A DNA stretch of 33,262 nucleotides from a bacterium. Lineage in GTDB: Bacteria > Patescibacteriota > Minisyncoccia > Phycocordibacterales > UBA2100. The position numbers and the translations under genes are program-made. Positions 9,324-32,624 of the stretch are shown one piece after another. Each line of letters opens with the position of its first letter. Within the stretch, counting starts at the first letter, position 1. Under the pieces are notes generated by a model. The model ran no database searches, was not told the origin of the DNA, and saw only the letters and a program-made list of their open reading frames with translations. The stretch is from the NCBI GenBank assembly GCA_021781955.1, contig JAJXVV010000002.1:138730-171991 (forward strand), in the 5' to 3' direction.

Positions 9324-9329
9324 TATACT
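9324..9329 (+). promoter_or_regulatory. -10 element TATACT (TGa-extended), 6 nt before the start codon
   Basis: tgaTATACTtttcgtATG; leaderless arrangement for the cupin isomerase gene. Confidence 0.65.
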
Positions 9330-9335
9330 TTTCGT

Positions 9336-9914
9336 ATGGCATTCGAACCTTACGCAGCCCGGACGCATGAAAAGATGCTCGACGTGTTGATGGACCCGTC
9401 CGCCGAGGGTCCCGCTATTCATTACTACATGATCCGCGGCGGCTCCGACAAGCGCAACGTGACGGTCTGGGAGGCGGGCACCGTGGGCGGCGAGTACATC
9501 AAGACCTACGGCCACTACCATGTCGATGACCTTCCCGAGACGTACTGGTTCGTTGCCGGAGAGGGTGTCGCGCTCTTGCAGAAGATGGCTGTGATAAACG
9601 GCGTGCCGCAAGAGGACGTGCTCGATGAGTTTAAGGCCATTCGCGTGAAGGCGGGCGATGTGCTGCATATCCCGCCGCGCTACGGGCACCTCGTCGCCAA
9701 CGTCGGCAAAGAGTGGTTCGTCACGATCGACGACTCGCCGGTCGCCACTGGCGACTCGGCCTCGATGCCCGCGCATGCCGATTACCGCGCGGTGCAGCGC
9801 ATGCGCGGGTTCGCGTATTATGTGGTGGAAAAAGACGGCGCACCGGCGCTCGAGAAGAATCCGCTCTACAAGGAGATACGAACGGCCGACCTCGGCGGCA
9901 TACCTCTCGCCTAA
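9336..9914 (+). CDS. Cupin-type (archaeal-type) glucose-6-phosphate isomerase
   Basis: EAGTVGGEYIKTYGHYHVDDLPETYWFVAGEGVALLQ...VKAGDVLHIPPRYGHLVANVG; H-x-H, E and distal H metal-ligand pattern of PF06560-type enzymes. Confidence 0.82.
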   Translation: MAFEPYAARTHEKMLDVLMDPSAEGPAIHYYMIRGGSDKRNVTVWEAGTVGGEYIKTYGHYHVDDLPETYWFVAGEGVALLQKMAVINGVPQEDVLDEFKAIRVKAGDVLHIPPRYGHLVANVGKEWFVTIDDSPVATGDSASMPAHADYRAVQRMRGFAYYVVEKDGAPALEKNPLYKEIRTADLGGIPLA

Positions 9915-9915
9915 G

Positions 9916-10737
9916 ATGTACATCGTCGCGGATATCGGGGGGACGAAGACCCGCGTCGCGGCAAGCGTTGATGGCGCGACTTTCGGCGAGCCGGTCATGA
10001 TGGATACGCCGCTGCGCTACGGCGACGGCGTCGCCGCGTTCATCACGCATGCGCGCGGACTCTCGAACGGCCAAAAAATCGACGGCATCGCTATCGGCAT
10101 CAAGGGTGTCGTCGCGGCGGACAAGCGCTCGGTCATCACCGCGCCGCAAAACATCTTGCTCGATTGGAAAGACCGTCCGCTCGCGCAGGACATCGAGGCG
10201 CAGCTCGGCGCGAGCGTGCGCATGGAGAACGACACGGCGCTCGTGGGCCTCGGCGAGGCGGCCTTCGGCGCGGGGAAAGATCATTCCGTCGTCGCATACC
10301 TGACCGTCTCGACTGGCGTCAACGGCGTGCGCATCGTTGACGGTGCGATCGATCGCGGGCGGGCCGAGATTGGCGGACAGTACCTGCGGGCCGGCGATAC
10401 GCTCAAATCGATCGAGGATCACATCTCTGGCGCCGCGATATCGGATCGATACGGCGTACATCCGAAAGAAATAGACAAAGATTCGCCGCTGTGGGAGGAG
10501 CTCGCGCGCATCACGGCCTTCGGCGTGCACAATATGCTCTTGCACTGGTCGCCGGACATCGTCGTGCTGGGCGGTTCCATGTTCAATGAGATCGGCATTG
10601 CGGTGCCGCGCGTCGAGTATCACGTGAAAAACATCATGCGTAAGTTCCCGACGATCCCGCCGATGGTCCATTCGGTGCTCGGCGAGGTAGGCGGCCTCTG
10701 GGGCGGCTTGGCGCTCCTCGGAAGACTCGCTCGTTGA
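9916..10737 (+). CDS. ROK family sugar kinase (glucokinase-like)
   Basis: YIVADIGGTKTRVAASVDG; ENDTALVGLGEAAFGAGKDH; TVSTGVNGVRIVDG; DIVVLGGSMFN. Start is 2 nt after the previous stop. Confidence 0.88.
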   Translation: MYIVADIGGTKTRVAASVDGATFGEPVMMDTPLRYGDGVAAFITHARGLSNGQKIDGIAIGIKGVVAADKRSVITAPQNILLDWKDRPLAQDIEAQLGASVRMENDTALVGLGEAAFGAGKDHSVVAYLTVSTGVNGVRIVDGAIDRGRAEIGGQYLRAGDTLKSIEDHISGAAISDRYGVHPKEIDKDSPLWEELARITAFGVHNMLLHWSPDIVVLGGSMFNEIGIAVPRVEYHVKNIMRKFPTIPPMVHSVLGEVGGLWGGLALLGRLAR

Positions 10738-10749
10738 GCGATCTTACCG

Positions 10750-11343
10750 TTACTTCTGTGGCTCGTGACGGAGTTTCCAGACGAGCGGCACGAGCGACGC
10801 GATGATGATCACGATCACGATGGGGCCGACGTAATTGCCGATGAGCGGCACGCGCACCGCGAGATAGTAGCCGAGGAACGCGATGCCCGCGCCCCACAGG
10901 AGCGCGCCGACGACGTTGTACGCCAGGAAGGTCCGATAGCGCATCTTTACGACGCCGGCCACTATCGGCGCGAAGGTGCGCACGAACGGCACGAAACGCG
11001 CGAGAATGACGGCGTAGACGCCGTGGCGTTCATAGAATACTTTCGCCTGCTCAAGGTACGCGTGCTTGAAGAAGCGCGAATCAGGACGCAAGAAGATGCG
11101 GTAGCCGACCTTCGCGCCGAACCAGTACCCGGCGCTGTCGCCCAGGATAGCGGCGAAGGCGACGAGCGGGATAAGCGTCCAGATATTGAAGAATCCTTGG
11201 CTCGAAAGAAGCCCGGCCGTGAAGAGTATCGAAGCGCCCGGCAGGAAAAACCCGAAGAAAACGCCCGATTCGAGGAAAATGATTGCGAATATTCCGGGAT
11301 AGCCGACGAGCTTCACGAGCGGAATGAGCGCCAGATGATGCAT
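10750..11343 (-). CDS. DedA/SNARE-associated family membrane protein
   Basis: FLESGVFFGFFLPGASILFTAGLLSSQG; ILGDSAGYWFGAKVGYRIF; VPFVRTFAPIVAGVVKMRYRTFLAYNVVGALLWG. ORF track starts at 11352, but a -10 overlaps that ATG, so the second Met (11343) is favoured. Confidence 0.88.
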   Translation of the reverse strand: MHHLALIPLVKLVGYPGIFAIIFLESGVFFGFFLPGASILFTAGLLSSQGFFNIWTLIPLVAFAAILGDSAGYWFGAKVGYRIFLRPDSRFFKHAYLEQAKVFYERHGVYAVILARFVPFVRTFAPIVAGVVKMRYRTFLAYNVVGALLWGAGIAFLGYYLAVRVPLIGNYVGPIVIVIIIASLVPLVWKLRHEPQK

Positions 11344-11350
11344 TTGGACC

Positions 11351-11356
11351 ATTATA
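11351..11356 (-). promoter_or_regulatory. -10 TATAAT, 7 nt before the dedA ATG at 11343
   Basis: Minus strand gtagTATAATggtccaaATG. Confidence 0.65.
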
Positions 11357-11376
11357 CTACCGGCGGCCGTTGCGCG

Positions 11377-12720
11377 TTAGCGTTTCGTATCGCCCGGCAG
11401 AGGGTACTTTTTGCAGAACGATCTGATCTCTTTGCGGATAGCGAGCAGTTCTTCGTTGCGCGCCGCTCCCTTCTTGAATCTCGCGATGTAAGCGGCGCGC
11501 TCTTTCACGTCGCTCGGCATGCGGTACGAACCGACCGCGCGGATGCTGCGCGCGATCCACTCGCCAACCTTCTGCATCTCACGCTCTTTCATGCCACGCG
11601 TCGTGAGCGCAGGAGTGCCAAGGCGCACGCCGCTCGGATAGAAGGGCGACATGGGCTCTTTTGGGATCGTGTTCTTGTTGGCCGTCATGCCCGCGACCTC
11701 CATCGCGTCGCTCCCGAATACGCCGCCGCCAGGACCAAAGATGGGGGCGAGGTCGAGGAGGATCAGGTGGTTCTCGGTGCCGTCCGCGACGAGCGTGATG
11801 CCATTCTTTTTGAGGCTCGCGGCAAGCGCTTTCGCGTTCTTCACGATCTGTTTGCCGTACGCGGAGAACTTCGGCGTCGCGGCTTCCTTGAGCGCGATCG
11901 CGATAGCAGCCGTTTGGTGATCGTGCGGACCGCCCTGCAAGCCGGGGAAGACGGCCTTGTCGACCTTCTGTGCAAGGTCAGGATCTTTCTTAAGACCGCG
12001 GTCGGTGACCATGATCATGCCGCCGCGTGGGCCGCGGAGCGTTTTGTGCGTCGTCGTCGTGACGATGTGCGCGTGCGGGACCGGCGAAGGGTGAGCGCCA
12101 GCCACGATGAGCCCGGCAACGTGGGCGATGTCGGCCGCAAGGTAAGCGCCTACCTCGTCGGCGATCTCTGCGAATTTCTTGTAGTCGTATGCGTATGGGT
12201 AAGCGGTCGCACCGGCCCAGATGAGCTTCGGTTTGTGTTCTCGAGCGAGTTTCCGGAGTTCTTCAAAGTCTATCCGGCCATCGGCACGTACATGGTAGGG
12301 TACACTCTTGTAGAACATCGCGGTCGCCGAGACTTTCCAGCCGTGCGTGAGGTGGCCGCCCTCGGGCAAAGCCAGACCCATGATAGTGTCGCCGGGCGCA
12401 CAGGTCGCGAGGTAGACGGCGAGATTTGCCGGTGAGCCGGAGTAGGGCTGTACGTTGACGTGCTTGACGCGGAAAAGCTTTTTGGCGCGTTCGATCGCGA
12501 GCAGTTCGATGTGGTCGATGTGCTCGTTGCCGTTGTAGTAGCGCCTGCCCGCATAGCCTTCGGAATACTTGTTGGTGAGGATGCTGCCCATCGCTTCCAT
12601 GACGGCGGGCGAGGTGTAATTTTCCGAGGGAATGAGCTCAAGTCCTTCGGTCTGGCGCTTCTTTTCGTCGAGTATCGAGCGGTACAGTTCTGCGTCTTGA
12701 TTCTTGATGCGATCGTACAT
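11377..12720 (-). CDS. glyA: Serine hydroxymethyltransferase
   Basis: LIPSENYTSPAVMEAMGSILTNKYSEGYAGRRYYNGNEHID; THKTLRGPRGGMIM; FPGLQGGPHDH. Confidence 0.97.
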   Translation of the reverse strand: MYDRIKNQDAELYRSILDEKKRQTEGLELIPSENYTSPAVMEAMGSILTNKYSEGYAGRRYYNGNEHIDHIELLAIERAKKLFRVKHVNVQPYSGSPANLAVYLATCAPGDTIMGLALPEGGHLTHGWKVSATAMFYKSVPYHVRADGRIDFEELRKLAREHKPKLIWAGATAYPYAYDYKKFAEIADEVGAYLAADIAHVAGLIVAGAHPSPVPHAHIVTTTTHKTLRGPRGGMIMVTDRGLKKDPDLAQKVDKAVFPGLQGGPHDHQTAAIAIALKEAATPKFSAYGKQIVKNAKALAASLKKNGITLVADGTENHLILLDLAPIFGPGGGVFGSDAMEVAGMTANKNTIPKEPMSPFYPSGVRLGTPALTTRGMKEREMQKVGEWIARSIRAVGSYRMPSDVKERAAYIARFKKGAARNEELLAIRKEIRSFCKKYPLPGDTKR

Positions 12721-12779
12721 AGAAATTACCGGTTAGGGGGAACGTGATAAGTGGTGCGAACGCTAGATCATACGCGGAT

Positions 12780-13394
12780 TTAGAGCACTGATTGTACGGC
12801 ATCGCGCACGTCCTTCCAAACTTGCTCCTGCGGACGTTCGGTGTTGATAACGAAGGGGGTGCCGAACTCGCCGACATGCTTTTTGTATCCCTTGCGAACG
12901 CGTCGGTGGAACTCGAGCTTCTCGCGATCGAAACGGGTGGCTCGATCGGCGCGCTTCCGTATGCGTTCGGCCGCGATCTCGGGCGAGACGTCGAGCAACA
13001 GGCAGGCGTCCGGCTCGCAGTCCTCGAGCACGTGTGCGGAAACGTCCCGGTAGAGCCCCAAAAGTCCGGGACGTCGTCTGCCGTAGACTTGGTAGGCGAT
13101 AGAGGAGAGACTGAAACGATTGCACACGACCGTCTTGCCGGCTTTGAGTGCAGGGCGGATGATCTGTGCAACAAGCTCCGCGCGCGAGGCGAGGAAGAGC
13201 AACAGTTCCGTCTTAGCATCGATATGCTTTGAATCGTCCGACAGCAGAAGATCGCGCACGCGTGTCCCAAGTGGCGTGCCGCCCGGGTCTTGCGTGTACA
13301 CGAACGCGGGGAATTCTTTCTTGAGACGTTCGATATGGGTCGTTTTGCCCGACCCGTCGCCGCCTTCGAGGATGATGAATGTTCCTCGAGCCAT
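12780..13394 (-). CDS. tmk: dTMP kinase
   Basis: MARGTFIILEGGDGSGKTTHIERLKK; DPGGTPLGTRVRDLLL; LLLFLASRAELV; DRATRFDREKLEFHRRVRKGY. ORF track extends too far upstream into thyA. Confidence 0.95.
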   Translation of the reverse strand: MARGTFIILEGGDGSGKTTHIERLKKEFPAFVYTQDPGGTPLGTRVRDLLLSDDSKHIDAKTELLLFLASRAELVAQIIRPALKAGKTVVCNRFSLSSIAYQVYGRRRPGLLGLYRDVSAHVLEDCEPDACLLLDVSPEIAAERIRKRADRATRFDREKLEFHRRVRKGYKKHVGEFGTPFVINTERPQEQVWKDVRDAVQSVL

Positions 13395-13399
13395 GGTGA

Positions 13400-14362
13400 T
13401 CAATCGGGTTTGTTGTCCAAGTTGCGGAAGCCGGCGACCGTGAGCTCGGCACGGATGGGCGGATGGGCTTCGTAGCCGGCCAACGCCACGTGCTCGGGGC
13501 GGAACGCATCGAGGCTCGTCGCGGCGTCGCTTATCCTGATCGTCGGAAATGGTTTCGGGTCGCGGGAGAGCTGCTCTCTCACCGCTTCGATATGATCTTC
13601 GTAGATGTGCGCGTCGCCGAACGTGTGGACGAATTCGCCCGCTTCGCGTCCAAGTATCTTCGCGACGATGTGCGCCAGGAGCGCATAGCTCCCGATGTTG
13701 AACGGTACGCCCAGGAACATGTCGGCGGATCGCTGGTAGAGCTGGAGGCTCACCTTGCCGTGCTTGATGTTCATCTGGTACATGTTGTGGCAAATGGGGA
13801 AATGGTTGACCTCTTCCGGTTTTGCCATCGAGTAAAGGTACTCCGGGTTCCATGAGGTGACGATCGCGTTGTGGCAGCTCGGGTCCTGCTTGAGCTCGTT
13901 GATCGCCCACGCGAGCTGGTCGACGCCGCGGCCGTCCTTGGCCGGCCAGCGCCGCCACATTTCGCCATAAATGTGGCGCAGCTCGCCCCACTCGGCGGCG
14001 AACGCCTCATCCGAGGCTATCTTCGCGATGAACTCGTCCTTCGTGAGCGCGGGCAGGCCGCTTCGCTTTGCCTTCTCCGCGTACATTCGCCACGGATAGT
14101 CGTCCCAAATGTGCACGCCGTTATCGACGAGGTATTTGATATTGCTCTGGCCGGACATGAACCAGTAGAGCTCCTGCAAGACGCCTTTCCAGTAGACCTT
14201 TTTCGTCGTGAGCAGGGGGAAACCCTGCGAAAGGTCGAACCGTATCTGCCGGCCGAACACGCTGTAGGTTTTCTTGCCGTGGCCCGCGTCTACCTGCTCC
14301 TCGCCGTGCTCAAGCACTTCCCGCAAGAGGTCGAGGTACTGGTGCTCGGGATGCCGGTCCAT
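13400..14362 (-). CDS. thyA: Thymidylate synthase (ThyA)
   Basis: YLDLLREVLEHGEEQVD..GKKTYSVFGRQIRFDLSQGFPLLTTKKVYWKGVLQELYWFMSG; QRSADMFLGVPFNIGSYALLAH; GDAHIYEDHIEAV. Confidence 0.97.
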   Translation of the reverse strand: MDRHPEHQYLDLLREVLEHGEEQVDAGHGKKTYSVFGRQIRFDLSQGFPLLTTKKVYWKGVLQELYWFMSGQSNIKYLVDNGVHIWDDYPWRMYAEKAKRSGLPALTKDEFIAKIASDEAFAAEWGELRHIYGEMWRRWPAKDGRGVDQLAWAINELKQDPSCHNAIVTSWNPEYLYSMAKPEEVNHFPICHNMYQMNIKHGKVSLQLYQRSADMFLGVPFNIGSYALLAHIVAKILGREAGEFVHTFGDAHIYEDHIEAVREQLSRDPKPFPTIRISDAATSLDAFRPEHVALAGYEAHPPIRAELTVAGFRNLDNKPD

Positions 14363-14368
14363 AGCGCG

Positions 14369-14374
14369 AGTATA
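14369..14374 (-). promoter_or_regulatory. -10 TATACT (TGa-extended), 6 nt before the thyA ATG
   Basis: Minus strand tgaTATACTcgcgctATG. Confidence 0.7.
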
Positions 14375-14384
14375 TCACTGGCGA

Positions 14385-14939
14385 CTAGCGCTCCTTTTTC
14401 TTCTTCGCGGGTACGAAATGTTTCCAATTGTCCTTTGCGAAGCGGCCACTCTGGCGATAGCTCTGCTTGGTGGGCGAGGAGAGCATTGAGAAGGTAATCT
14501 GCGCTATCTCCATGCCCGGCCGCAAAATGATGGGCACGGTACTCTGGTTGGTGATCTCGAAGGTGATGTTGAGGAAGTGGCCCGGGTTGATGATGCCGGC
14601 GGTGTTGTGGACCATGAGTCCGATGCGTGCGAGCGAGCTTTTGCCGCCCACCTGGATAAGGTAGTGATCGGAGCCAAAGTACTCCTTTGACATACCGAGC
14701 ACGGACATGCCTGGGTGCAGCACGAACTCCGCGCCGTCCCTCACGATCGTTTCGCGGGTCTTCGCGTAGACACGCTTCACCGGGTCGACGAAAACGGTCG
14801 CACTCCCTTCGTTCTCGATGAATTTGTTGCCGAGGCGGATATCGTAGCTTGCGGGCTGGAGCTGGCGAACGTTGAACGGCTTGAGCGTAATGAGTCTCTG
14901 CTTCACGTGCTTCTGGATATCGACGTCGGAGAGGAACAT
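14385..14939 (-). CDS. dcd: dCTP deaminase
   Basis: MFLSDVDIQKHV; LQPASYDIRLGNKF; GGKSSLARIGLMVHNTAGIINPGHFLNITFEITNQ; PIILRPGMEIAQITF. Confidence 0.93.
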   Translation of the reverse strand: MFLSDVDIQKHVKQRLITLKPFNVRQLQPASYDIRLGNKFIENEGSATVFVDPVKRVYAKTRETIVRDGAEFVLHPGMSVLGMSKEYFGSDHYLIQVGGKSSLARIGLMVHNTAGIINPGHFLNITFEITNQSTVPIILRPGMEIAQITFSMLSSPTKQSYRQSGRFAKDNWKHFVPAKKKKER

Positions 14940-14946
14940 ACGCTGG

Positions 14947-15657
14947 TCACTCTATGGTAAAGACTGTATCAGTTCCGTAGTAATCCTGCCAGTGAGCGTT
15001 GTAGTGGGCGAACATGCGCTCGAGACGGTCTTGCGGCAATTCTTGGACTTTAAGCCTTTCCATGAGTGCGCGCACGTCGTGCTCGGCATTGGCCACCTGA
15101 TCGGCGTTCTCGACGATACGCTCGAACTCCGCGAGCCAGCCGTAGCCGGCGTTTTTATCAAGGGTTACGTTGATGCCGAGACATACGTATTCCTCGCGCT
15201 GGCGCGACCACTTGGCCTGATACGCGAAGCCGCACGACATGACGAGCTCGTCGAGGTCCTTGAGCGGGAGCTCTATGCGCTCGTCGAACTCGATTCGGGC
15301 GACGCCGTTCTGGCTCGAATCATCGCCAACGGATGCTTTGACGATAAGGTAGACCGCCTTCGCGTCGTCCGCTTCTTTGAGTCTTGTGCGTACCGAGTGA
15401 TCGGTCGCGCGCGCCGCAAGATCGGCGAGTCTCGCTGCGGCGGCCTTTTCCACGAGCGGTCGTGTCGCGTCGTACAATTGCTCGAGCGGGCTTTTCGCGC
15501 CGCCGTGCTCGGCGCTCGGCTCGAAGTAGTGGTTGAGCTGCCGATTGACCGCGAGGAGTTGGCACGTGGGATCGAGCTTCCGCATCGCTTTGCGCAACTC
15601 CTCGGCACGCTCCGATCCGCCCAGGAGCGCCTTCACCTCGACTTCGTAGGATTGCAT
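14947..15657 (-). CDS. CYTH-domain protein (adenylate cyclase class IV/triphosphatase-like)
   Basis: SYEVEVKALL; QLNHYFE; VRTRLKEADDAKAVYLIVKAS; RIEFDERIELPLKDLDELVMSCGFAYQAKWSRQREEYVCLGINVTLDKNAGYGWLAEFE. Confidence 0.75.
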   Translation of the reverse strand: MQSYEVEVKALLGGSERAEELRKAMRKLDPTCQLLAVNRQLNHYFEPSAEHGGAKSPLEQLYDATRPLVEKAAAARLADLAARATDHSVRTRLKEADDAKAVYLIVKASVGDDSSQNGVARIEFDERIELPLKDLDELVMSCGFAYQAKWSRQREEYVCLGINVTLDKNAGYGWLAEFERIVENADQVANAEHDVRALMERLKVQELPQDRLERMFAHYNAHWQDYYGTDTVFTIE

Positions 15658-15663
15658 GGGGCC

Positions 15664-15669
15664 AGTATA
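15664..15669 (-). promoter_or_regulatory. -10 TATACT, 6 nt before the CYTH ATG
   Basis: Minus strand aatTATACTggccccATG; overlaps the folA -10 by 4 bp. Confidence 0.65.
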
Positions 15670-15671
15670 AT
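15666..15671 (+). promoter_or_regulatory. -10 TATAAT, 6 nt before the folA ATG
   Basis: ccagTATAATtcggatATG. Confidence 0.7.
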
Positions 15672-15677
15672 TCGGAT

Positions 15678-16196
15678 ATGGAAAAAGGCACAGTAGCCGC
15701 GATCGCCGCGATAGGGACGCACCGGGAGCTTGGCTATCGCGACAAGCTGCTGTGGCACATTCCCGACGATCTTCAGCGTTTCAAGCGTCTCACGTTCGGT
15801 CATCCGGTCATCATGGGCCGCAAGACGTTCGACTCGATCGTCGGCTACCTCGGCAAGCCATTCCAAGGGCGCACGAGCGTCGTCGTCACGCGTGATCCTC
15901 AGTACGACGCATCGAAATACGGCGAAGGCGTGGTCGTTGCCCACTCGCTCGACGAAGCACTCGGTCTCGCGCGTCGACAGCCGGGCGGAGAAGAAGTGTT
16001 CATCGGCGGCGGCGCGGAGATCTATCGGCAGGCGCTCCCCCGCGTCGACCTGCTCCGGCTTACCATAATAGACGACACGAAGCTTGCGGACGCTTATTTT
16101 CCCGAATACGAACGGGAGTTCACGGAGGTCGCGTTCGAGGAAGCGCGTGAGTGGGAGGGGATCAAGTATCGGTACGTCGATCTCGAGCGCGGGTAA
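15678..16196 (+). CDS. folA: Dihydrofolate reductase
   Basis: KGTVAAIAAIGTHRELGYRDKLLWHIPDDLQRFKRLTFGHPVIMGRKTFDSI; FIGGGAEIYRQALPRVDLLRLTII. Confidence 0.93.
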   Translation: MEKGTVAAIAAIGTHRELGYRDKLLWHIPDDLQRFKRLTFGHPVIMGRKTFDSIVGYLGKPFQGRTSVVVTRDPQYDASKYGEGVVVAHSLDEALGLARRQPGGEEVFIGGGAEIYRQALPRVDLLRLTIIDDTKLADAYFPEYEREFTEVAFEEAREWEGIKYRYVDLERG

Positions 16197-16218
16197 CAAG
16201 GTTATCCCCAGATTCCTA

Positions 16219-16238
16219 CAGAGGACCGTCCTCCGGGT
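16219..16238. repeat. Palindromic intergenic motif, copy 1
   Basis: cagaggaccgtcctccgggt; 19/20 identical to 29182-29201. Confidence 0.6.
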
Positions 16239-16299
16239 TTGGCGTGGCGTGTTTGCGTCACGCAGTACGCGGCAGCTTGCGGGGCGCATGATGCCGCAC

Positions 16300-16305
16300 T
16301 ATACT
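16300..16305 (+). promoter_or_regulatory. -10 TATACT, 5 nt before the purSL ATG
   Basis: cacTATACTgcgccATG. Confidence 0.65.
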
Positions 16306-16310
16306 GCGCC

Positions 16311-19268: not shown

Positions 19269-19271
19269 CGT

Positions 19272-20042
19272 ATGAGAAAACCGTCCGTCATCATTCTCTC
19301 CGGCTACGGCCTCAATACCGAGGAGGAGACGAAGACCGCGTTCGAGCTCGCCGGTGCGCGCGCGAGAATCGTTCATATCAACGATCTCATCGCGAGGCCG
19401 TCGCTTCTCGACGCGACGCAGATCGCGGTCGTACCCGGGGGGTTCTCGTATGGCGACGACACTGGTTCTGGCAATGCGTACGGCAATCGTCTCAAGCAGC
19501 ACTTGGGCCGCACGCTCGAGCGGTTCCTCGCGCGCGATACGCTCATGCTCGGCATTTGCAACGGTTTCCAGATACTCACGAAAGCGGGCATTCTTCCCGG
19601 CGCGCTCATCGCCAACAACAACGCGCGCTACACCTGTCGCTGGGCCGACGTCGAAGTCGCAGGGGAAAGTCCGTGGCTCGGAGGCATCACGCGCATGTCG
19701 GTACCCATCGCGCATGGCGAGGGGAAATACTATGCGCCGCCGGCAATGCTCGCGGAGCTGAAGAAAAATAACGCCATCGCGCTCGCGTATGCGGAAGGCG
19801 AGACCGCACGCCATTTCGGTTTGCCGTTCAACCCAAACGGTTCGCTTGAGAACATCGCTGGCGTGACCGCATATGACGGGCGCGTTCTGGGACTCATGCC
19901 GCATCCGGAGCGCGCGGTGCGCTTCACGCAACTGCCGCACTGGACGCTCGTGCGCGAGGACTACGCACGCGCAGGCAAGAAGCTTCCGACCAAGGGCCCC
20001 GGCCTTCAGTTGTTTAGGAATGCGGTAAAATACTTCGCATGA
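19272..20042 (+). CDS. purQ: Phosphoribosylformylglycinamidine synthase, glutaminase subunit
   Basis: PGGFSYGDDTGSGNAYGNRL; LMLGICNGFQILTKAGILPG; VLGLMPHPERAV. Confidence 0.93.
   Translation: MRKPSVIILSGYGLNTEEETKTAFELAGARARIVHINDLIARPSLLDATQIAVVPGGFSYGDDTGSGNAYGNRLKQHLGRTLERFLARDTLMLGICNGFQILTKAGILPGALIANNNARYTCRWADVEVAGESPWLGGITRMSVPIAHGEGKYYAPPAMLAELKKNNAIALAYAEGETARHFGLPFNPNGSLENIAGVTAYDGRVLGLMPHPERAVRFTQLPHWTLVREDYARAGKKLPTKGPGLQLFRNAVKYFA
20026..20031 (+). promoter_or_regulatory. Candidate internal -10 TAAAAT, 7 nt before the purE ATG
   Basis: gcggTAAAATacttcgcATGA; lies within the 3' end of purQ. Confidence 0.45.
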
Positions 20043-20566
20043 ACATCCCGCTCGTCGGCATTATCATGGGTTCCGATTCCGACCTGCCGGCCATGCAGGA
20101 TGCGGCGAAGCTGCTCGATGAGCTCGGTGTCGGCTACGAGATACACACGCTTTCCGCGCACCGCACTCCCGAGGCGGTTGTCGAGTACGTCACGAAGAGC
20201 GAAGCGGCAGGGTACAAAGCATTTATCTGCGGCGCCGGAGGCGCGGCGCATTTGGCGGGAGCCGTCGCCGCGCACACCGCGCTGCCGGTCATCGGCGTCC
20301 CGATCATGAACAAATCCACCGGCGGCATCGACGCGCTCTTTTCGACCGCACAAATGCCGCCCGGCATTCCTGTGGCGACGGTCGCGATCAACGGTGCGAA
20401 GAACGCCGGCATACTGGCGGCACAAATCATCGGCGCGGGAGATGAAGCGACGCGGACGAAAGTTCGCGCATACAAGGAAAAGATTGCGAAAGACATCCAA
20501 GCGAAGGACGACGATCTGCAGCAAAAAGGTTTCAAGAAATACCTCGAGGACAGGGGGTTGGTATGA
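20039..20566 (+). CDS. purE: 5-(carboxyamino)imidazole ribonucleotide mutase
   Basis: VGIIMGSDSDLPAMQDAAKLLDELGV; SAHRTPEAV; ICGAGGAAHLAGAVAAHTALPVIGVPI; MPPGIPVATVAINGAKNAGILAAQI. ATGA overlap with purQ. Confidence 0.96.
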   Translation: MNIPLVGIIMGSDSDLPAMQDAAKLLDELGVGYEIHTLSAHRTPEAVVEYVTKSEAAGYKAFICGAGGAAHLAGAVAAHTALPVIGVPIMNKSTGGIDALFSTAQMPPGIPVATVAINGAKNAGILAAQIIGAGDEATRTKVRAYKEKIAKDIQAKDDDLQQKGFKKYLEDRGLV

Positions 20567-23952: not shown

Positions 23953-23974
23953 TCGATCCCGTTGGACACGCCCC

Positions 23975-24757: not shown

Positions 24758-24758
24758 A

Positions 24759-25517: not shown

Positions 25518-25526
25518 GGAAGATTG

Positions 25527-25532
25527 ATGATA
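25527..25532 (-). promoter_or_regulatory. -10 TATCAT (TGa-extended), 9 nt before the ABC ATPase ATG
   Basis: Minus strand tgaTATCATcaatcttccATG. Confidence 0.5.
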
Positions 25533-26264
25533 TCAAATGAGCAATGCGTTGGCGATGAAATCGAACGTGTCATCAGGGTTCTTCACGGCGCGTGTCGGTA
25601 TGACGCCGATGACCGCCTCGTCGTTGCCACCCGGAAAAAGCGCGTCGCCCAGGTACAGGCAATCCTCCTTTTTCCACCCTTCGAGTTCAAGCAGGCGGGA
25701 CACGTTGTGCCCCTTGTCTTTTCCTGCGGCAACGAAGTTGAACGTGGTCGTGCCGGCGGGGACGACCTCGACGTGCGCCGCGGTCAACGTCTTGAGCTCG
25801 TTCGGGAGCGCGCGAAGTGCAGCCTGCCGCTTTGAATCGCCGGGGTCGAAGGCATATTTTTCCTCGGCATCTTCGTGGAAACCGATAACGCTGTAGCTGA
25901 TCTGTGCGCCACGGTTTTCCACCAGGTCGTTTTCATCCTTCACTGAAAGGTCGAAGTGACGTTTGAGTGCGTCCACGAACGTCATGACTGAAGTTACTTG
26001 TGCTGATGTGAGCGGTTCGTTCCAAAGCTCGTTGCCTTGCTTGTCGAGTGCGTGATTGCCGCTCTGTGCGAGCGTGTAGTAGTGACCGTCGAAACGAGAG
26101 GTTATCTGCTCTCTGATCTGTTCGCGATTACCGCCGGACACAACGATCACGTCTCGTTTTGCGCATAATGCAGCGAACAATCCCTGATGTACCGCATCCA
26201 TAGGGGCGCGACTCACGGTGAGCGTCTTGTCGAGATCAAAGAATATGTGCGTCGGCGTGCTCAT
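25533..26264 (-). CDS. HAD-IIB family hydrolase (second in window)
   Basis: THIFFDLDKTLTVSRAPM; VIVVSGGNREQI; CLYLGDALFPGGNDEAVIGVIPTRAV. Confidence 0.82.
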   Translation of the reverse strand: MSTPTHIFFDLDKTLTVSRAPMDAVHQGLFAALCAKRDVIVVSGGNREQIREQITSRFDGHYYTLAQSGNHALDKQGNELWNEPLTSAQVTSVMTFVDALKRHFDLSVKDENDLVENRGAQISYSVIGFHEDAEEKYAFDPGDSKRQAALRALPNELKTLTAAHVEVVPAGTTTFNFVAAGKDKGHNVSRLLELEGWKKEDCLYLGDALFPGGNDEAVIGVIPTRAVKNPDDTFDFIANALLI

Positions 26265-26268
26265 TTAG

Positions 26269-26805
26269 TTAGTTGTCGTGAAGCACGAGGTCGACCAGGT
26301 AGTCGCCTTTGCCCAGCGCGATGCCGTTTTTGCGCAAAATAGCGTAGGCGGTGACGACGTGAAAGTAAAAGTTGGGCATGAGGTACTGCGTCGCGTAGTC
26401 GAAGGCCTTGAGGTGCTTGCCGGGGAAGTAGGGAAGCTCGACCTTGCGATCCTCGTGGCCCGCTACCGCATCGGGCTTGATGGTGTCGAGGAATGCGATC
26501 GTCTTGTCCAATCGCTCTTTCAGCTCCGCGACGGTCGATTCGGTATCTTCGAACGCGGGCGCTTCGATGCCGGCGAGCCGTGCGGCGCCGAGTTTCGCGT
26601 TGTCGGCGGCGATGCGTACCTGCATGACGAGCGGGAACTGATCGAAGACGAGGCGGTCGGCCAACAGTGCGTCTTCGTAGCTGCGGCGCGGGGTACGCTT
26701 GGACTCCGCGTGCGCGGAAGCCTTGTCGAGAATGCCCGCGAGCGCCTTGAGGGAGGTGCGCATGGGCGGTACCGTGACGGTATAAAGGTTCGTCTCCTGT
26801 TTCAT
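26269..26805 (-). CDS. DUF1993-like (DinB-like) protein
   Basis: MRTSLKALAGILDKASAHAE...DALLADRLVFDQFPLVMQVRIAADNAKLGAARLAG...YFPGKHLKAFDYATQYLMPNFYFHVVTAYAILRKNG. Confidence 0.75.
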   Translation of the reverse strand: MKQETNLYTVTVPPMRTSLKALAGILDKASAHAESKRTPRRSYEDALLADRLVFDQFPLVMQVRIAADNAKLGAARLAGIEAPAFEDTESTVAELKERLDKTIAFLDTIKPDAVAGHEDRKVELPYFPGKHLKAFDYATQYLMPNFYFHVVTAYAILRKNGIALGKGDYLVDLVLHDN

Positions 26806-26840
26806 GGTGCTTTACAAGTGAAAGTAATGGGCCAAGTGTA

Positions 26841-27404
26841 TCACGCGATCCGTCGTTCCCAATACGAGGCGGAGGTCGCCACGTAATCAGCCACGCGGCG
26901 CTCGGCGGCCGCGGCGAGCGCGATGCGGTAGCGCTCGTCGAACGCGCTCGCGGCTAAACGTTGTCCGAATTCATGGAGCTGCGCAGGGGAGGAGAGGACG
27001 AGGCGGCCGCCTTTAGCGGCCGCTCGCAAGAGCGTCGGCCCGCCGATGTCGGTTTTCTCGATGACTTCTGCCGGTGTTCCCCCGTTCGCAACGGCCTGTT
27101 CGAGCGGATAGAGCGTGACGTACACGAGGTCGATCCGCCGCACCCCAAGTTTCTTGAGTTCTGCCGCGTCCGCGTCGGTCGCGAGCAATCCGGCATGGAG
27201 TTCGCGCGAGAGCGTGACCACGCGATGGCCAAGAATGGGCGGGCCGACCAGTTCGGCTACGTCGCGGCAGGTAACGCCATTATCGCTCAAGTATTTCGCG
27301 GTTCCGGCTGAACCCAGCAACTCCCAGCCTGCGTCCGTGAGCGACTTGCCGAGCGAAAGCAGTGCCGCATCCTTTTCGTACGAAGCGAGCAGCGCGGTCT
27401 TCAT
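26841..27404 (-). CDS. Standalone IMP cyclohydrolase / PurH N-terminal (MGS-like) domain protein
   Basis: KTALLASYEKDAALLSLGKSLTDAGWELLGSAGTAKYLSDNG; ILGHRVVTLSRELHAGLLA; IDLVYVTLYPLEQAV; EKTDIGGPTLLRAAAKGGRLVLSSPAQ. The ORF ends with no AICAR transformylase domain. Confidence 0.85.
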   Translation of the reverse strand: MKTALLASYEKDAALLSLGKSLTDAGWELLGSAGTAKYLSDNGVTCRDVAELVGPPILGHRVVTLSRELHAGLLATDADAAELKKLGVRRIDLVYVTLYPLEQAVANGGTPAEVIEKTDIGGPTLLRAAAKGGRLVLSSPAQLHEFGQRLAASAFDERYRIALAAAAERRVADYVATSASYWERRIA

Positions 27405-27411
27405 GCCGCAC

Positions 27412-27417
27412 ATTTTA
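27412..27417 (-). promoter_or_regulatory. -10 TAAAAT (TGc-extended), 7 nt before the ATG at 27404
   Basis: Minus strand tgcTAAAATgtgcggcATG; overlaps the upstream ATG at 27413. Confidence 0.65.
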
Positions 27418-27436
27418 GCACGCGGCCTCGTGCGGA

Positions 27437-28309
27437 CTACAGCTTCAAACCATTCAAGAACGATGCGAATTCTCCGTTGAGATCCGGATGCTTGAGGCCG
27501 AACTCGACGACGGTCTTCAAGTACTCGAGCTTGTTGCCGGTGTCGTAGTACTTACCGCCTTTCGATTCGACCGCGTAGACATCCTGTTCTTTCATGAGGG
27601 CGACGATCGCATCGACGAGCCAGAGCTCGTTGCCCTGGCCGACCGGCGTTTGCGCCAGGAGCTCGAAGAGGCGCGGCGGCATGATGTAAGCGCCGCCGGT
27701 CATCATGTTGGAAGGCGCTTCGCCGACTTTCGGCTTTTCGACGAGGCGGTTGATCTTGTAGACGTTGTCCTTTACCGGCGAGATATCGGCGATGCCGTAC
27801 TTGCTCACGGACTGCTCCGGTACGCGCACGGCGGAGATACATGGTTTTCCGTATTGCTCCCACACGTCTATCATTTGCTTGAGGCGCGGCGGCTGTGCGT
27901 GTACGAATTCGTCGCCCCAGAGAATGGCGAACGGCTCGTCGCCGACGGCGCTCCACGCGTTCAAGACCGGCGTGCCGTTGCCGTACGAACCTTTTTGGCG
28001 GATGTAAATGAAGTTGGCGAGATCGGCGATGGCGCGGATCTCGTCGGCAAGCTTTTCCTTGCCCGCATCAAGCAGATGCCGTTCGAGTTCGTAGGGATGG
28101 TCGAAATGATCCTCAATCGCGCGCTTGTGCGAGCCGGTGACAATGATGATGTCCTCAATGCCGGCAGCGACCGCCTCCTCCACGACATACTGAATGATGG
28201 GTTTGTCGACGATAGGGAGCATCTCCTTGGGCATCGCCTTGGTCGCCGGGAGAAAGCGCGTCCCGAATCCTGCCGCTGGTATGACCGCCTTGCGCACTTT
28301 CTGTGCCAT
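27437..28309 (-). CDS. galU: UTP--glucose-1-phosphate uridylyltransferase
   Basis: RKAVIPAAGFGTRFLPATKAMPKEMLPIVDKPIIQYVVEEAVAAGIEDIIIVTG; VEKPKVGEAPSNMMTGGAYIMPP; KGGKYYDTGNKLEYLKTVVEFGL. Confidence 0.95.
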   Translation of the reverse strand: MAQKVRKAVIPAAGFGTRFLPATKAMPKEMLPIVDKPIIQYVVEEAVAAGIEDIIIVTGSHKRAIEDHFDHPYELERHLLDAGKEKLADEIRAIADLANFIYIRQKGSYGNGTPVLNAWSAVGDEPFAILWGDEFVHAQPPRLKQMIDVWEQYGKPCISAVRVPEQSVSKYGIADISPVKDNVYKINRLVEKPKVGEAPSNMMTGGAYIMPPRLFELLAQTPVGQGNELWLVDAIVALMKEQDVYAVESKGGKYYDTGNKLEYLKTVVEFGLKHPDLNGEFASFLNGLKL

Positions 28310-28318
28310 GGTGGGGCT

Positions 28319-28324
28319 ATTGTA
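28319..28324 (-). promoter_or_regulatory. -10 TACAAT (TGg-extended), 9 nt before the galU ATG
   Basis: Minus strand tggTACAATagccccaccATG. Confidence 0.55.
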
Positions 28325-28479
28325 CCAGATATGCGCCGGGAACGTCAGTCCGCCCCGGATCGCCTTCGGAGGTGGATAAAAGGCATTGCGCTCCATTCGG
28401 GGCAGCGTCATACTTATGCAATAAAGGTCGATTCTGCCCTGCCGGGCAGGGATTATAAGCCGATAGTTTCTCCGCATAT

Positions 28480-28710
28480 ATGAAAGATCTTCACAAAGTG
28501 GCGTGGGTACTGGTCATGATCGGGGGCCTCAACTGGCTTTTGGTCGGGCTCGGTGACTTCGTCGGGAGCAATTGGAACCTGGTCAACCTCATTGTTGGCT
28601 CGTGGCCGTGGCTTGAGGACCTGGTATACCTACTCGTAGGCCTTTCTGCCATCTACGAGATCGTGAAGCACAGGAGTATCTGCAAGAAGTGCGCGAAGTC
28701 TGCGATGTAG
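28480..28710 (+). CDS. DUF378 family small membrane protein
   Basis: KVAWVLVMIGGLNWLLVGLGDFVGSNWNLVNLIVGSWPWLEDLVYLLVGLSAIYEI. Confidence 0.87.
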   Translation: MKDLHKVAWVLVMIGGLNWLLVGLGDFVGSNWNLVNLIVGSWPWLEDLVYLLVGLSAIYEIVKHRSICKKCAKSAM

Positions 28711-28730
28711 AATCATGTTTTGTGCGAGAG

Positions 28731-28763
28731 GCAGCCTCGTCCGCCTTCGGCGGACGAGGCTGC
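28731..28763 (+). terminator. Hairpin, likely transcript end after DUF378
   Basis: gcagcctcgtccgcc-ttc-ggcggacgaggctgc: perfect 15-bp stem, no downstream T-tract. Confidence 0.6.
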
Positions 28764-28839
28764 CGAGTTATACACGCGGGGGCTGGCGCACCTCAAGAGG
28801 GTGGCTATAATCACCCCATACTAGTCAATTACATTATTT

Positions 28840-29097
28840 ATGGTCAGAAAAGCGAACCCCGCATTGCTTAAGCCGATGAATCTCTCAGCTGAACTCGAAG
28901 TCGTCGTGGGCAAGGGGCCGATGACTCGCGGCGCAGTCGTCAAAAAGATCTGGGAGTACATCAAGAAGAACGACCTTCAGAACCCTAAGAACAAGCGCAA
29001 CATCTTGGCCGATGAGAAAATGAAGCCGCTCTTTGGCGGCAAAGGCGAGGTGACCATGTTCGAAATGACCAAGCTCGTCTCCGCGCACCTGTCCTAG
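28840..29097 (+). CDS. SWIB/MDM2-domain protein
   Basis: LSAELEVVVGKGPMTRGAVVKKIWEYIKKNDLQNPKNKRNILADEKMKPLFGGKGEVTMFEMTKLVSAHL. Confidence 0.92.
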   Translation: MVRKANPALLKPMNLSAELEVVVGKGPMTRGAVVKKIWEYIKKNDLQNPKNKRNILADEKMKPLFGGKGEVTMFEMTKLVSAHLS

Positions 29098-29120
29098 ACG
29101 ATCTCGCAGGCATTCCTTAG

Positions 29121-29151
29121 CGGCCTCGCCCTCTCAAAGAGGGCGAGGCCG
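29121..29151 (+). terminator. Hairpin, likely transcript end after the SWIB gene
   Basis: cggcctcgccctct-caa-agagggcgaggccg: perfect 14-bp stem, no clear T-tract. Confidence 0.6.
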
Positions 29152-29181
29152 CCGTCGTTCTTGCATGCCCGCAGTTTTACC

Positions 29182-29201
29182 CAGAGGACCGTCCTCTGGG
29201 T
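29182..29201. repeat. Palindromic intergenic motif, copy 2
   Basis: cagaggaccgtcctctgggt, inside the dyad acccagaggac-c-gtcctctgggt (29179-29201). Confidence 0.6.
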
Positions 29202-29292
29202 GGGGGAGGGCCTCGCTCGGCACGATCTGCCGCAGCGCTCCGGCAGACGGTGGTAGGTTGCATTTCATGCGCGAGCGGGTATCGTATGGATC

Positions 29293-30147
29293 ATGAACGT
29301 GCCTGATCCTGTCGTCTTGTACGGCGCTGTGTACGCGTGGGTGATGACGAACGGTATCGCTATACTCGCGATCATCATTGGCGCGATCATCGTACGGATG
29401 GTCGGCAGGATGTTCCTCGAGCGCATCATCCGCCGTTTCGTGCCATCATCGGGATTCCCTTCCACGGAAGCGGGGCGCAAGCGTGAGGAAACGCTCATTC
29501 GCATCGCACGCGGCACGCTGACGGTCCTCGTGTGGATCGTCGGTTCCCTCATGGTGCTCTCGAAGGCGGGCATCGATATCGGCCCCCTGCTCGCCACCGT
29601 CGGCGTCGCCGGCGTAGCGGTCGGCTTCGGCACGCAGTATTTCATCCGTGACATCATCGCAGGCATCCTCGTCATCATCGAGGATCAATACCGCGTGGGA
29701 GACGCCGTTTGTCTCGATACGACGTGCGGGATCGTCGAGGACATCTCCATTCGCATGACGACGCTGCGCGATACCGATGGCACCGTACATCACATCGCGC
29801 ACGGCAGCACGACGAAAGCGTCCAATCTCTCGAAGGATTTCGCCAACGTCAACCTCAATGTCGGCGTTTCGTACGCGTCGGACCTTGAGCAGGTGATACG
29901 CATCATCAGCGAAGTGGGCGAAGAACTCGCCGCCGATCCCGTATGGAAAGCGGACATCCACAAAGCGCCGCACTTCGAGCGCGTCGACGACTTCGGCGAT
30001 TCTGCGGTCATCATCAAGATACTTGGCGAGACCGCGCCTTTGCGCCAGTGGGCGGTCACGGGCGAGTTGCGCAAACGCCTCAAGATAGCCTTCGACAGGG
30101 CGGGTATCGAGATACCGTTCCCGCAGCGCGTGATCCATCAAGCATAA
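29293..30147 (+). CDS. Mechanosensitive ion channel, MscS family
   Basis: GIDIGPLLATVGVAGVAVGFGTQYFIRDIIAGILVIIEDQYRVGDAVCL; VEDISIRMTTLRDTDGTVHHIAHG. Confidence 0.93.
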   Translation: MNVPDPVVLYGAVYAWVMTNGIAILAIIIGAIIVRMVGRMFLERIIRRFVPSSGFPSTEAGRKREETLIRIARGTLTVLVWIVGSLMVLSKAGIDIGPLLATVGVAGVAVGFGTQYFIRDIIAGILVIIEDQYRVGDAVCLDTTCGIVEDISIRMTTLRDTDGTVHHIAHGSTTKASNLSKDFANVNLNVGVSYASDLEQVIRIISEVGEELAADPVWKADIHKAPHFERVDDFGDSAVIIKILGETAPLRQWAVTGELRKRLKIAFDRAGIEIPFPQRVIHQA

Positions 30148-30203
30148 GGCAATCGTTCGCGAACTGTACCGAAGCGGCCATGACCCCGTAGCCGAGCGTC
30201 CGC

Positions 30204-30209
30204 TATACT
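30204..30209 (+). promoter_or_regulatory. -10 TATACT, 6 nt before the matrixin-like ATG
   Basis: cgcTATACTggggccATG. Confidence 0.65.
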
Positions 30210-30215
30210 GGGGCC

Positions 30216-31163
30216 ATGACGCGTCGCGTTCTCGATTGGACAGTGCTGCTCGCCGTGCTCGGCGTAGGCGGTTATTGGGTGTACGCTCACCACGCGCAGG
30301 TACAGACCGCGGTGCAGCTCGTGCGCTCGCAGGTGGCGCCGTGTTCGAGTCCGGTCACGTACTCGCTCGGCTCCATCGATCCGCGCTTTGGCATCGCAAC
30401 GAGCACCTTCATCGCCGACATGAAAGAAGCCGCGAGCATTTGGGCGCAATCCGGCAAGACGCTCTTGCAGTATGAGCCGGAAGGCGGCGCGGTGACGGTC
30501 AGCCTCGTGTACGATGCGCGCCAAGCGGCGACCGATCAGCTCAAGGCGGCGGGCATTCAGGTCGATCAGAGCAAAGCGACGTACGATTCGCTCAAGAGAC
30601 GTTACGACGCGCTCTCTGCGCAGGTCGATGCCGAGCAGGCGGCATACGACGAGCGCGTCGCCACGTACAAGAGCGACGAGTCGGCGTATAATACGGCGGT
30701 CGGTCAGTGGAACGCGCAGGGTGGTGCGCCGCCCGACGTATACACCCAGATGCAACAGCAACAACAGGCGCTCCAGAGCGAATACTCGAGCGTCAAATCC
30801 CAGGAAAGCGCGCTCAATGCCGACATTTCCATGCTGAACGCGCTTGCGACCACGATCAATCAGCTCATCGTTCAGCTCAACCTCAACGTGCAGCAGTACA
30901 ACCGTACGGGAACGGCGCAAGGAGAGTTCGAGGAGGGCGTCTACGTCCTTGCGGACGGCGCACAGACGATAAACATCTACGAGTTCAGCGGGCACGTGGA
31001 GCTCGTCCGCGTGCTCGCGCACGAGATGGGGCACGCGCTCGGGCTCCAACACGTCGCCGATCCGCAGGCCATCATGTATCACCTCAACAGTGGGACCAAC
31101 CTCACGCTCGCCAAAGCCGACCTCGCGGAGCTCGACTCCGCGTGTCACTTCGCGTCGCAGTAG
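30216..31163 (+). CDS. Membrane-anchored matrixin-like zinc metalloprotease with internal coiled coil
   Basis: N-terminal TM; VLAHEMGHALGLQHVADPQAIMYH gives HExxHxxGxxH plus Met-turn; long Gln/Ala-rich heptad-like region between the two parts of the catalytic domain. Confidence 0.85.
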   Translation: MTRRVLDWTVLLAVLGVGGYWVYAHHAQVQTAVQLVRSQVAPCSSPVTYSLGSIDPRFGIATSTFIADMKEAASIWAQSGKTLLQYEPEGGAVTVSLVYDARQAATDQLKAAGIQVDQSKATYDSLKRRYDALSAQVDAEQAAYDERVATYKSDESAYNTAVGQWNAQGGAPPDVYTQMQQQQQALQSEYSSVKSQESALNADISMLNALATTINQLIVQLNLNVQQYNRTGTAQGEFEEGVYVLADGAQTINIYEFSGHVELVRVLAHEMGHALGLQHVADPQAIMYHLNSGTNLTLAKADLAELDSACHFASQ

Positions 31164-31169
31164 TATAGT
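31164..31169 (+). promoter_or_regulatory. -10 TATAGT, 6 nt before the J-like/S41 ATG
   Basis: tagTATAGTggacgtATG, immediately after the upstream stop codon. Confidence 0.6.
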
Positions 31170-31175
31170 GGACGT

Positions 31176-32477
31176 ATGGCCACTCGGTCGCTCATCGTGC
31201 TCATCGTACTCGCCGTGCTCGCGGGAGGCGGCGGGTGGTACGCGTACATGCGCTTTACGCCGTCCGCTGCAGCGCAGTACAAGACGCCCGAGGAAGCGGC
31301 CAACGTGTACGTCCGTTTCGATATGGAGGCATTCGATACGATCATGGCGCAGTATTGGCAGAGCGGTAAAGAGAGCGATCTCGCCAGTTTGTATCAACTC
31401 GCGCTCGCGAAGGTTGAGAACACCAACGAAACGCTTCCGAGCGACGATCGTGCGGGCGTCGCGCAGATGCTCGCGGCGGCCTTTGCGGGCAAGAGTGACA
31501 CCGATCAGCACGACGAAGCGCTCAACGTGCTGCAGGTCGTGCTCTACAACCTTGCACCGACGGGACGCGACCAGCTCATGACAGGGCAGCAAGAGCAGTC
31601 ATTCCGCAATCACGTCGCCAACATCAACCCCGCGCAGGACCTCTACGCGACGCTCGGTTTGCAGGAGGGCGCGAGCACGAGCAGCGTGCAGCAGGCATAT
31701 CAGCAGAAAATCGCTGAACTTCAAGCATCGACCTCGCCTCAAGCGAAGCAGCAGCTTGCCGACGTGCGGCACGCGCACACGATCTTGAGCAATGCGACCG
31801 ACAAGCAGCTCTACGACCAGACCGGTATGCAGCCGAGCATATCGATGCGGGTCGTCGGCGCGCACACGCTCTATGTCGATCTCAGCAAGGTGACGCCCGC
31901 AAGCTTTGCCGAATTCGTGGCCGAGCTGCAGCAAAAAGCGGCTGATCCTGCGCTCACCGGCATGATCCTCGACCTGCGCGGCAACATCGGCGGCACGTTC
32001 GACTTCCTTCAGAATTTCCTCGCGCTTTTCATCGGGCCGAACGAGTACGCCTTCGATCTTTACAGCAAAGGACAGATGCAGCCGCAACGCACGACCAACG
32101 TCGCCAAGCTCGATGTGCTCTCGCGCTTCTCGAATATCGCGCTCCTCACCGACGGCATGACGCAATCCACCGCTGAGCTCACGACCGCAGTCTTCGAGCG
32201 TTATCATCTCGCGCGCGTGATCGGCGCGACGACGCGCGGTTGGGGTTCGGTCGAGAACACGTACCCGCTCACGACGACGATCGACGCGTCGAGCACCTAC
32301 GCGCTCCTCCTCGTCAACTCGCTTACGCTCGACGAGAACAATCAGCCCATCGAAGGCAACGGCGTCAAGCCGGACGTGGACGTGGGGCAGGGTGGCTGGC
32401 AGGCGAAGGTGCGGGCACTTTTCCCGCCAGACCTCGCACAAGCGGTCATCGGGGAGTTTTCGACGACTACGAAGTGA
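31176..32477 (+). CDS. Membrane-anchored J-like domain / S41-family peptidase fusion
   Basis: N-terminal TM; DLYATLGLQEGASTSSVQQAYQQKIAEL...RHAHTILSNATDKQLYDQTG (J-like, no HPD); GMILDLRGNIGGTFDFLQNFLALFI and LLTDGMTQSTAELTTAVFERYHLARVIGATTRGWGSVEN...EGNGVKPDVDV (S41). Confidence 0.83.
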   Translation: MATRSLIVLIVLAVLAGGGGWYAYMRFTPSAAAQYKTPEEAANVYVRFDMEAFDTIMAQYWQSGKESDLASLYQLALAKVENTNETLPSDDRAGVAQMLAAAFAGKSDTDQHDEALNVLQVVLYNLAPTGRDQLMTGQQEQSFRNHVANINPAQDLYATLGLQEGASTSSVQQAYQQKIAELQASTSPQAKQQLADVRHAHTILSNATDKQLYDQTGMQPSISMRVVGAHTLYVDLSKVTPASFAEFVAELQQKAADPALTGMILDLRGNIGGTFDFLQNFLALFIGPNEYAFDLYSKGQMQPQRTTNVAKLDVLSRFSNIALLTDGMTQSTAELTTAVFERYHLARVIGATTRGWGSVENTYPLTTTIDASSTYALLLVNSLTLDENNQPIEGNGVKPDVDVGQGGWQAKVRALFPPDLAQAVIGEFSTTTK

Positions 32478-32479
32478 TA

Positions 32480-32485
32480 TATACT
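32480..32485 (+). promoter_or_regulatory. -10 TATACT, 7 nt before the small-ORF ATG
   Basis: tgataTATACTttccggcATG. Confidence 0.6.
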
Positions 32486-32492
32486 TTCCGGC

Positions 32493-32624
32493 ATGCAACT
32501 TCTGACGCAGCTTGAGAGCATCGCGTTCGCGGCGTTCAATACGTTCTTCCAGCTCATCCTCTATTTCCTGCAATTCTTCGTCGTCCTCGCGCAGGGGGTA
32601 CTGAGCATCTTCCGCCTGCACTAA
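32493..32624 (+). CDS. Small hydrophobic protein, 43 aa (absent from the ORF track)
   Basis: MQLLTQLESIAFAAFNTFFQLILYFLQFFVVLAQGVLSIFRLH*: one predicted TM/amphipathic helix; positioned -10; fills the gap between two genes. Confidence 0.55.
   Translation: MQLLTQLESIAFAAFNTFFQLILYFLQFFVVLAQGVLSIFRLH

Follow-up and report, generated by a model that had tools for sequence, protein, structure and literature searches.

Start-adjacent -10 elements and a missing anti-Shine-Dalgarno sequence suggest an unusual mode of protein start across an order of Patescibacteria

The window considered here, the whole stretch of 33,262 nucleotides that was analysed, raises a question about gene starts: what are the hexamers that end a few nucleotides ahead of so many of its start codons, and how might the host begin its proteins? 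The initial annotation listed 11 strong -10 boxes at 5-7 nt from start codons, and all 11 of the 11 are in the sequence at the spacings it gave. The weaker boxes that it named are likewise all present: GACAAT at the CAP gene, GATACT at HAD, TATCAT at ABC, TATCGT at mscS and TACAAT at galU. The strong boxes and that of galU are as follows.

9324..9329, + strand: TATACT box, spacer 6, ATG 9336, cupin-type glucose-6-phosphate isomerase (cupin/GPI)
11351..11356, - strand: TATAAT box, spacer 7, ATG 11343, VTT/DedA
14369..14374, - strand: TATACT box, spacer 6, ATG 14362, thymidylate synthase (thyA)
15664..15669, - strand: TATACT box, spacer 6, ATG 15657, CYTH; 4 bp overlap with the folA box
15666..15671, + strand: TATAAT box, spacer 6, ATG 15678, folA
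16300..16305, + strand: TATACT box, spacer 5, ATG 16311, purL-type FGAR amidotransferase
20026..20031, + strand: TAAAAT box, spacer 7, ATG 20039, purE; within the 3' end of the upstream purQ-type gene
27412..27417, - strand: TAAAAT box, spacer 7, ATG 27404, MGS domain (PurH-N)
28319..28324, - strand: TACAAT box, spacer 9, probable galU start ATG 28309
30204..30209, + strand: TATACT box, spacer 6, ATG 30216, matrixin-like peptidase
31164..31169, + strand: TATAGT box, spacer 6, ATG 31176, DnaJ + S41 peptidase (J/S41)
32480..32485, + strand: TATACT box, spacer 7, ATG 32493, 43-aa hydrophobic ORF whose stop ends at 32624

Genes were called from codon usage and coding potential alone (393 genes, 88.7% coding, 87% with ATG), so that the choice of start was independent of promoters. 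Some of the starts chosen in this way are wrong, and in the window the box corrects two of them: the cupin start lies at 9336 and not at the called 9375, and the VTT/DedA start lies at 11343 and not at 11352, where the ATG arises from the box itself (TATAATG). The galU start suggested by its box is six residues ahead of the NTP_transferase domain. At the divergent CYTH and folA genes, the two start codons are only 20 bp apart (CAT GGGGCC AGTATAAT TCGGAT ATG). When orthologues of the window genes were aligned, the box was found in 20 of 27 relatives, a count biased by a start choice within 8 codons that favoured boxes. The purH-N box is the cleanest case of conservation, since it sits in a non-coding gap and is present in 6/6 aligned relatives; conservation of the purE box is partly due to the overlapping purQ-type reading frame.

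The host genome is 741,301 bp long, rated 99.95% complete and 60% G+C. The nearest relatives of its purM-like protein (AIRS domains) belong to Candidatus Kaiserbacteria (75% identity), which points to a Candidatus Kaiserbacteria-like source for the window, within the Parcubacteria/Patescibacteria. We sampled this genome in 20 stretches of at most 20 kb each, which together with the window make up ~389 kb, about half of the genome, and box statistics were computed on 382 genes from this sample. The first base of TANNNT peaks at -12, where it is found in 54 of the 382 genes, whereas positions -80 to -30 average 3.58 each. Within -15 to -11 the pattern occurs at 119 real starts (31%) vs 57 of 3608 internal ATGs (1.6%; Fisher p = 6e-85), and 100 dinucleotide shuffles gave a mean of 21 and a maximum of 32. 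Hexamers with at most one mismatch from TATAAT behave in the same way in this interval (70 starts, 7 internal ATGs, shuffle mean 3.7). The initial annotation had staked its reading on an enrichment of TANNNT at -11 to -13, and this enrichment is what both controls reveal. If any nearby in-frame start is allowed, the number of genes with a box rises to 161 of 382, so that the strict pattern covers 31-42% of all genes. Boxed genes start with ATG in 111 of 119 cases, and box-less genes in 221 of 263.

The alignment of the 119 boxes has the character of a promoter. The motif is TATAAT/TATACT with A2 and T6 fixed, an extended -10 TG stands at -3 in 35 of 119, and TTG is found 14 times at -23 and 11 times at -22 from the box, compared with about 1-2 elsewhere; this is the position of a -35 element at the 17-bp spacing of sigma70. 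With the A of ATG as +1 (and no zero), a -10 box at -12 to -7 has the canonical geometry for initiation on A, and the transcript should thus begin at the AUG or 1-3 nt before it. A pyrimidine is expected ahead of a transcription start at A, and the base at -1 from the start codon is a pyrimidine in ~75%. On these sequence features, the hexamers are sigma70 promoter elements and not an RNA motif.

In the same sample the Shine-Dalgarno (SD) signal is at background. SD motifs lie upstream of 9% of host starts vs 13% in the background, and individual k-mers at -20 to -3 are no more frequent than expected (AGGA 17 vs 18, GGAG 21 vs 22, GAGG 24 vs 22). A search for an alternative SD/anti-SD pairing among the enriched upstream k-mers returned -10-like sequences at the top. 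The same pipeline recovered SD motifs in E. coli (50% vs 8%; strong box 0%) and in Clostridia (61% vs 10%; strong box 1.7%), with no box peak in either, and a plasmid of the leaderless organism D. deserti, albeit with 29 genes only, gave TANNNT at 28% vs 4%, compared with 31% vs 5% in the host. With these positive controls, the absent enrichment speaks against a canonical SD-led bacterium.

The host 16S rRNA has a corresponding peculiarity at its 3' end. The tail is without CCUCC (GGAUCACCUCC -> GGAAUCAUUCAAA); in the genome sequence the terminus is GTAGCGGAAGCTGCTCGTGGAATCATTCAAAAAAG, with helix 45 intact and GGATCACCTCC absent. The host thus falls, on both sequence-level counts, into category iv of PMC10783764 (SD-scarce, CCUCC absent). 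Tails were tallied by hand for the order, the class and genomes outside it. In the order, the readable own-lineage tails of 29/29 genomes are without CCTCC. One of these genomes (G225) carries its own altered tail and a canonical tail on another contig, which is probably a contaminant. The rest of the class keeps CACCTCC in 50 of 132 readable genomes, the others ranging from CTCC-type tails to full loss, and contrasts occur within one family (f22; G425 lost, G115 intact) and within one genus (g235; G276 lost, G374 intact). Beyond the class, CCTCC is kept in 109 of 118 tails and fully lost in none. As judged from these genomic tails, loss of the anti-SD in the class is graded and recurrent.

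We considered how else these observations might arise. Chance, or an artefact of start annotation in a genome of fluctuating A/T content, is a negligible prospect: the starts do come from coding potential only, with some errors among them, but wrong starts blur a single-position peak and do not create one, internal ATGs and shuffles have no such peak and so refute this reading, and further families of the order have the same peak. It is very improbable that faulty assembly, or a misreading of where the 16S ends, explains the absent anti-SD. The end was indeed taken from the genome sequence and not from mature rRNA, but helix 45 is intact, the altered tail is found in 29 genomes of the order with lineage-specific variants, the same search pattern recovers canonical tails in other families, and no CCTCC occurs in the ~50 nt downstream of the host 16S. 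It is somewhat less far-fetched, yet still unlikely, that the A/T-rich hexamers act in the mRNA and not as promoters, serving as an unstructured or AU-rich ribosome-binding signal on leadered transcripts as in Bacteroidota. Some non-SD signal is needed when SD motifs and anti-SD are both absent, and non-SD bacteria also show AT enrichment upstream of their starts. Fixed A2 and T6, the TGN extension and TTG at 17 bp are, however, properties of double-stranded promoter DNA, and divergent starts leave little space for leaders: elsewhere in the genome sample, divergent pairs lie 14-74 bp apart with one box per side.

A closer competitor is a mixed system, in which the start-adjacent promoters are real and leaderless mRNAs form a large minority, while most protein synthesis proceeds from leadered or internal polycistronic starts recognised by another signal, such as U at -1, low structure or coupling. 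This alternative shares the promoter reading with the explanation that we prefer, and the sole difference is the word 'mostly'. In its favour are the limited reach of the strict box over all genes, its rarity at overlapping genes (10 of 67, 15%) and at co-directional genes separated by >100 bp (22%), and a T at -1 in 49% of box-less genes vs 21% in the background, a preference reminiscent of the suggestion that U(-1) pairs with initiator-tRNA A37. In the sampled stretches no initiator tRNA is present, and a pattern search for its canonical arm gave no match. Against the mixed system, close divergent neighbours reach 62% with the strict pattern (30 of 48 genes 0-200 bp apart, null 8.2; 51-62% for all genes with a divergent neighbour), and the D. 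deserti control, where leaderless initiation is established, is no higher, although for so few genes. We regard the mixed system as a real possibility, and would not bet on it.

We think it very probable instead that transcription units in the host mostly begin with leaderless mRNAs, that recognition of SD sequences is gone and that operon-internal genes are reached by another route. In this preferred explanation, a sigma70-type promoter with a weak TTG -35, an extended TGN and a TATAAT/TATACT -10 would set the start of RNA polymerase on the A of ATG or 1-3 nt before it. The ribosome cannot choose starts through SD pairing, because the 16S tail is without CCUCC and no SD is enriched in the mRNAs; the 5'-terminal AUG would presumably be bound directly by an initiator-tRNA-loaded 30S subunit or by a 70S ribosome, as for known leaderless mRNAs. 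Many genes within apparent operons would have their own start-adjacent promoter: at co-directional genes with gaps of 5-40 bp, one count gives a box at 38%, vs ~4% further upstream, and another at 33 of 76 (null 3.2). Overlapping operon genes are mostly box-less and must start some other way, as a weaker suggestion probably by translational coupling, perhaps aided by the strong preference for U just before the AUG. Four observations sit less easily with this explanation: more than half of the genes are without a strict box, some Patescibacteria whose anti-SD is intact have the same box peak, a multi-S1-domain protein and a weak bS21-like match are still encoded in the host (many weak bS21 matches occur in genomes of both anti-SD states), and the avoidance of TANNNT-N6-ATG inside genes that a strong leaderless signal might predict is absent, with no depletion seen in the host gene sample. 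The initial annotation had proposed that the organism may rely mainly on leaderless mRNAs. The leaderless part of that proposal is supported by the geometry, the TGN and TTG elements, the pyrimidine at -1, the lack of SD enrichment and the lost anti-SD; 'mainly' calls for caution, given the share of genes with a strict box and the scarcity of boxes at overlapping genes.

The relatives, sampled at 14-60 kb per genome, bear on the order of events. A strong box is found at 21% vs 3% in the host's own order, at 12% vs 4.5% in those members of the class whose anti-SD is intact, and at 11% vs 3% in other Patescibacteria; some sampled genomes (G062, G417 and, within the host's order, G026) have no box peak. 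We considered and rejected the idea that the box peak strictly accompanies anti-SD loss, several genomes with an intact anti-SD sharing the peak. Anti-SD loss is therefore not the cause of the peak, and start-adjacent promoters are more widespread than the loss. The simplest order, on small samples per genome, would be leaderless transcription first and anti-SD decay later. A fuller scenario, to which we give slightly better than even chances, has the whole order abandoning SD initiation. Leaderless transcription would have come first and eased the constraint on the 3' end of the 16S rRNA, after which this tail would have degenerated in many families of the class independently of one another; genes inside operons would start by a separate mechanism, UAUG-type or coupled.

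Actinobacteria such as Streptomyces resemble the host in combining a high G+C content with TANNNT next to start codons, but there SD-led initiation coexists with leaderless genes, and in the host it appears absent. By the TANNNT-at-12 criterion, leaderless genes are common in Actinobacteria and in Deinococcus-Thermus (Zheng 2011, PMC3160421), and a similar criterion counts about 19% of S. coelicolor genes as leaderless (PMC3160421). Deinococcus-Thermus resembles the host in having TANNNT ~12 bp before the start of ~30% of ORFs, the highest average among the phyla studied (PMC12340547); there the motif is a true -10 box giving leaderless mRNA, its role having been proved in D. radiodurans (Zhong 2025, PMC12340547, which cites de Groot 2014 among the Deinococcus-Thermus leaderless work). 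In contrast to the host, with no SD enrichment and a 16S without CCUCC, that phylum also has an RBS (GGAG) motif (PMC12340547). Bacteroidota/Flavobacteriia share mRNAs without SD (PMC6847099), but F. johnsoniae ribosomes keep the anti-SD, with structure and Kozak-like bases modulating initiation (PMC6847099), whereas in the host a -10 promoter adjoins the start. One Campbellbacteria and one Wolfebacteria genome, Absconditabacteria and Nanoarchaeia are described as lacking CCUCC and SD in PMC10783764 (2024); the passages concerned do not give leaderless promoters as the way in which the bacterial candidate phyla initiate. In the present data CCUCC is gone from the whole order, its loss in the class is graded and has recurred, and it is linked to a promoter architecture. 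We found no leaderless-mRNA claim in the literature searched on Patescibacteria, CPR, Saccharibacteria and Parcubacteria, a search whose scope excluded subscription journals and preprints and so leaves priority uncertain. Within that literature, the order-level combination of leaderless -10 architecture with anti-SD loss looks new.

The finding has a practical implication for these genomes, where gene finders that expect an SD may misplace starts and a start-adjacent -10 box can correct them, as at 9336 and 11343. More broadly, it suggests an unusual mode of protein start across a whole bacterial order. If this is true, it would reveal how, and in which order of steps, a bacterial lineage can lose the best-known way of recognising starts. 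Because anti-SD sequences in the class run from intact through partly decayed to lost, at times with different states in a single genus (G374 and G276), the order of these events is testable.

The start codons of CYTH and folA lie only 20 bp apart in the window, and the -10 boxes of this divergent pair, hexamers of the TANNNT type adjoining each start, share 4 bp. This arrangement and three other features are listed here.

15657-15678, opposite strands, divergent pair of CYTH and folA
26841-27404, stand-alone MGS domain (PurH N-terminal half)
28840-29097, SWIB/MDM2-domain protein of 85 aa
32493-32624, hydrophobic ORF of 43 aa with a start-adjacent promoter of its own

Because the MGS domain stands alone, a split purH is suggested. 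The best-known sources of the SWIB/MDM2 domain are eukaryotes and chlamydiae. A cyclophilin gene lies directly downstream of the hydrophobic ORF.

In G225, a genome of the same order, the organism's own 16S tail, on contig C2, is altered and lacks the anti-SD CCUCC; a second tail, on contig C6 (262-307), carries the canonical anti-SD and has a non-Patescibacterial look, and C6 is probably a contaminant. Some same-order genomes likely carry large insertions or introns in their 16S genes: two of these genes are 2360 bp (L062, 1501-3860) and 2883 bp (L063, 1501-4383) long, and matches to several others are broken into pieces.

In 30 of the order's 31 genomes, a pattern search found no canonical anticodon arm of the initiator tRNA (GGGNTCATAACCC); this tRNA may have an altered sequence or be interrupted by an intron. 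Among genes of the window's own genome without a strict box, 49% have a T immediately 5' of the start codon, against a background of 21%; this T is possibly a start signal for non-leaderless genes.
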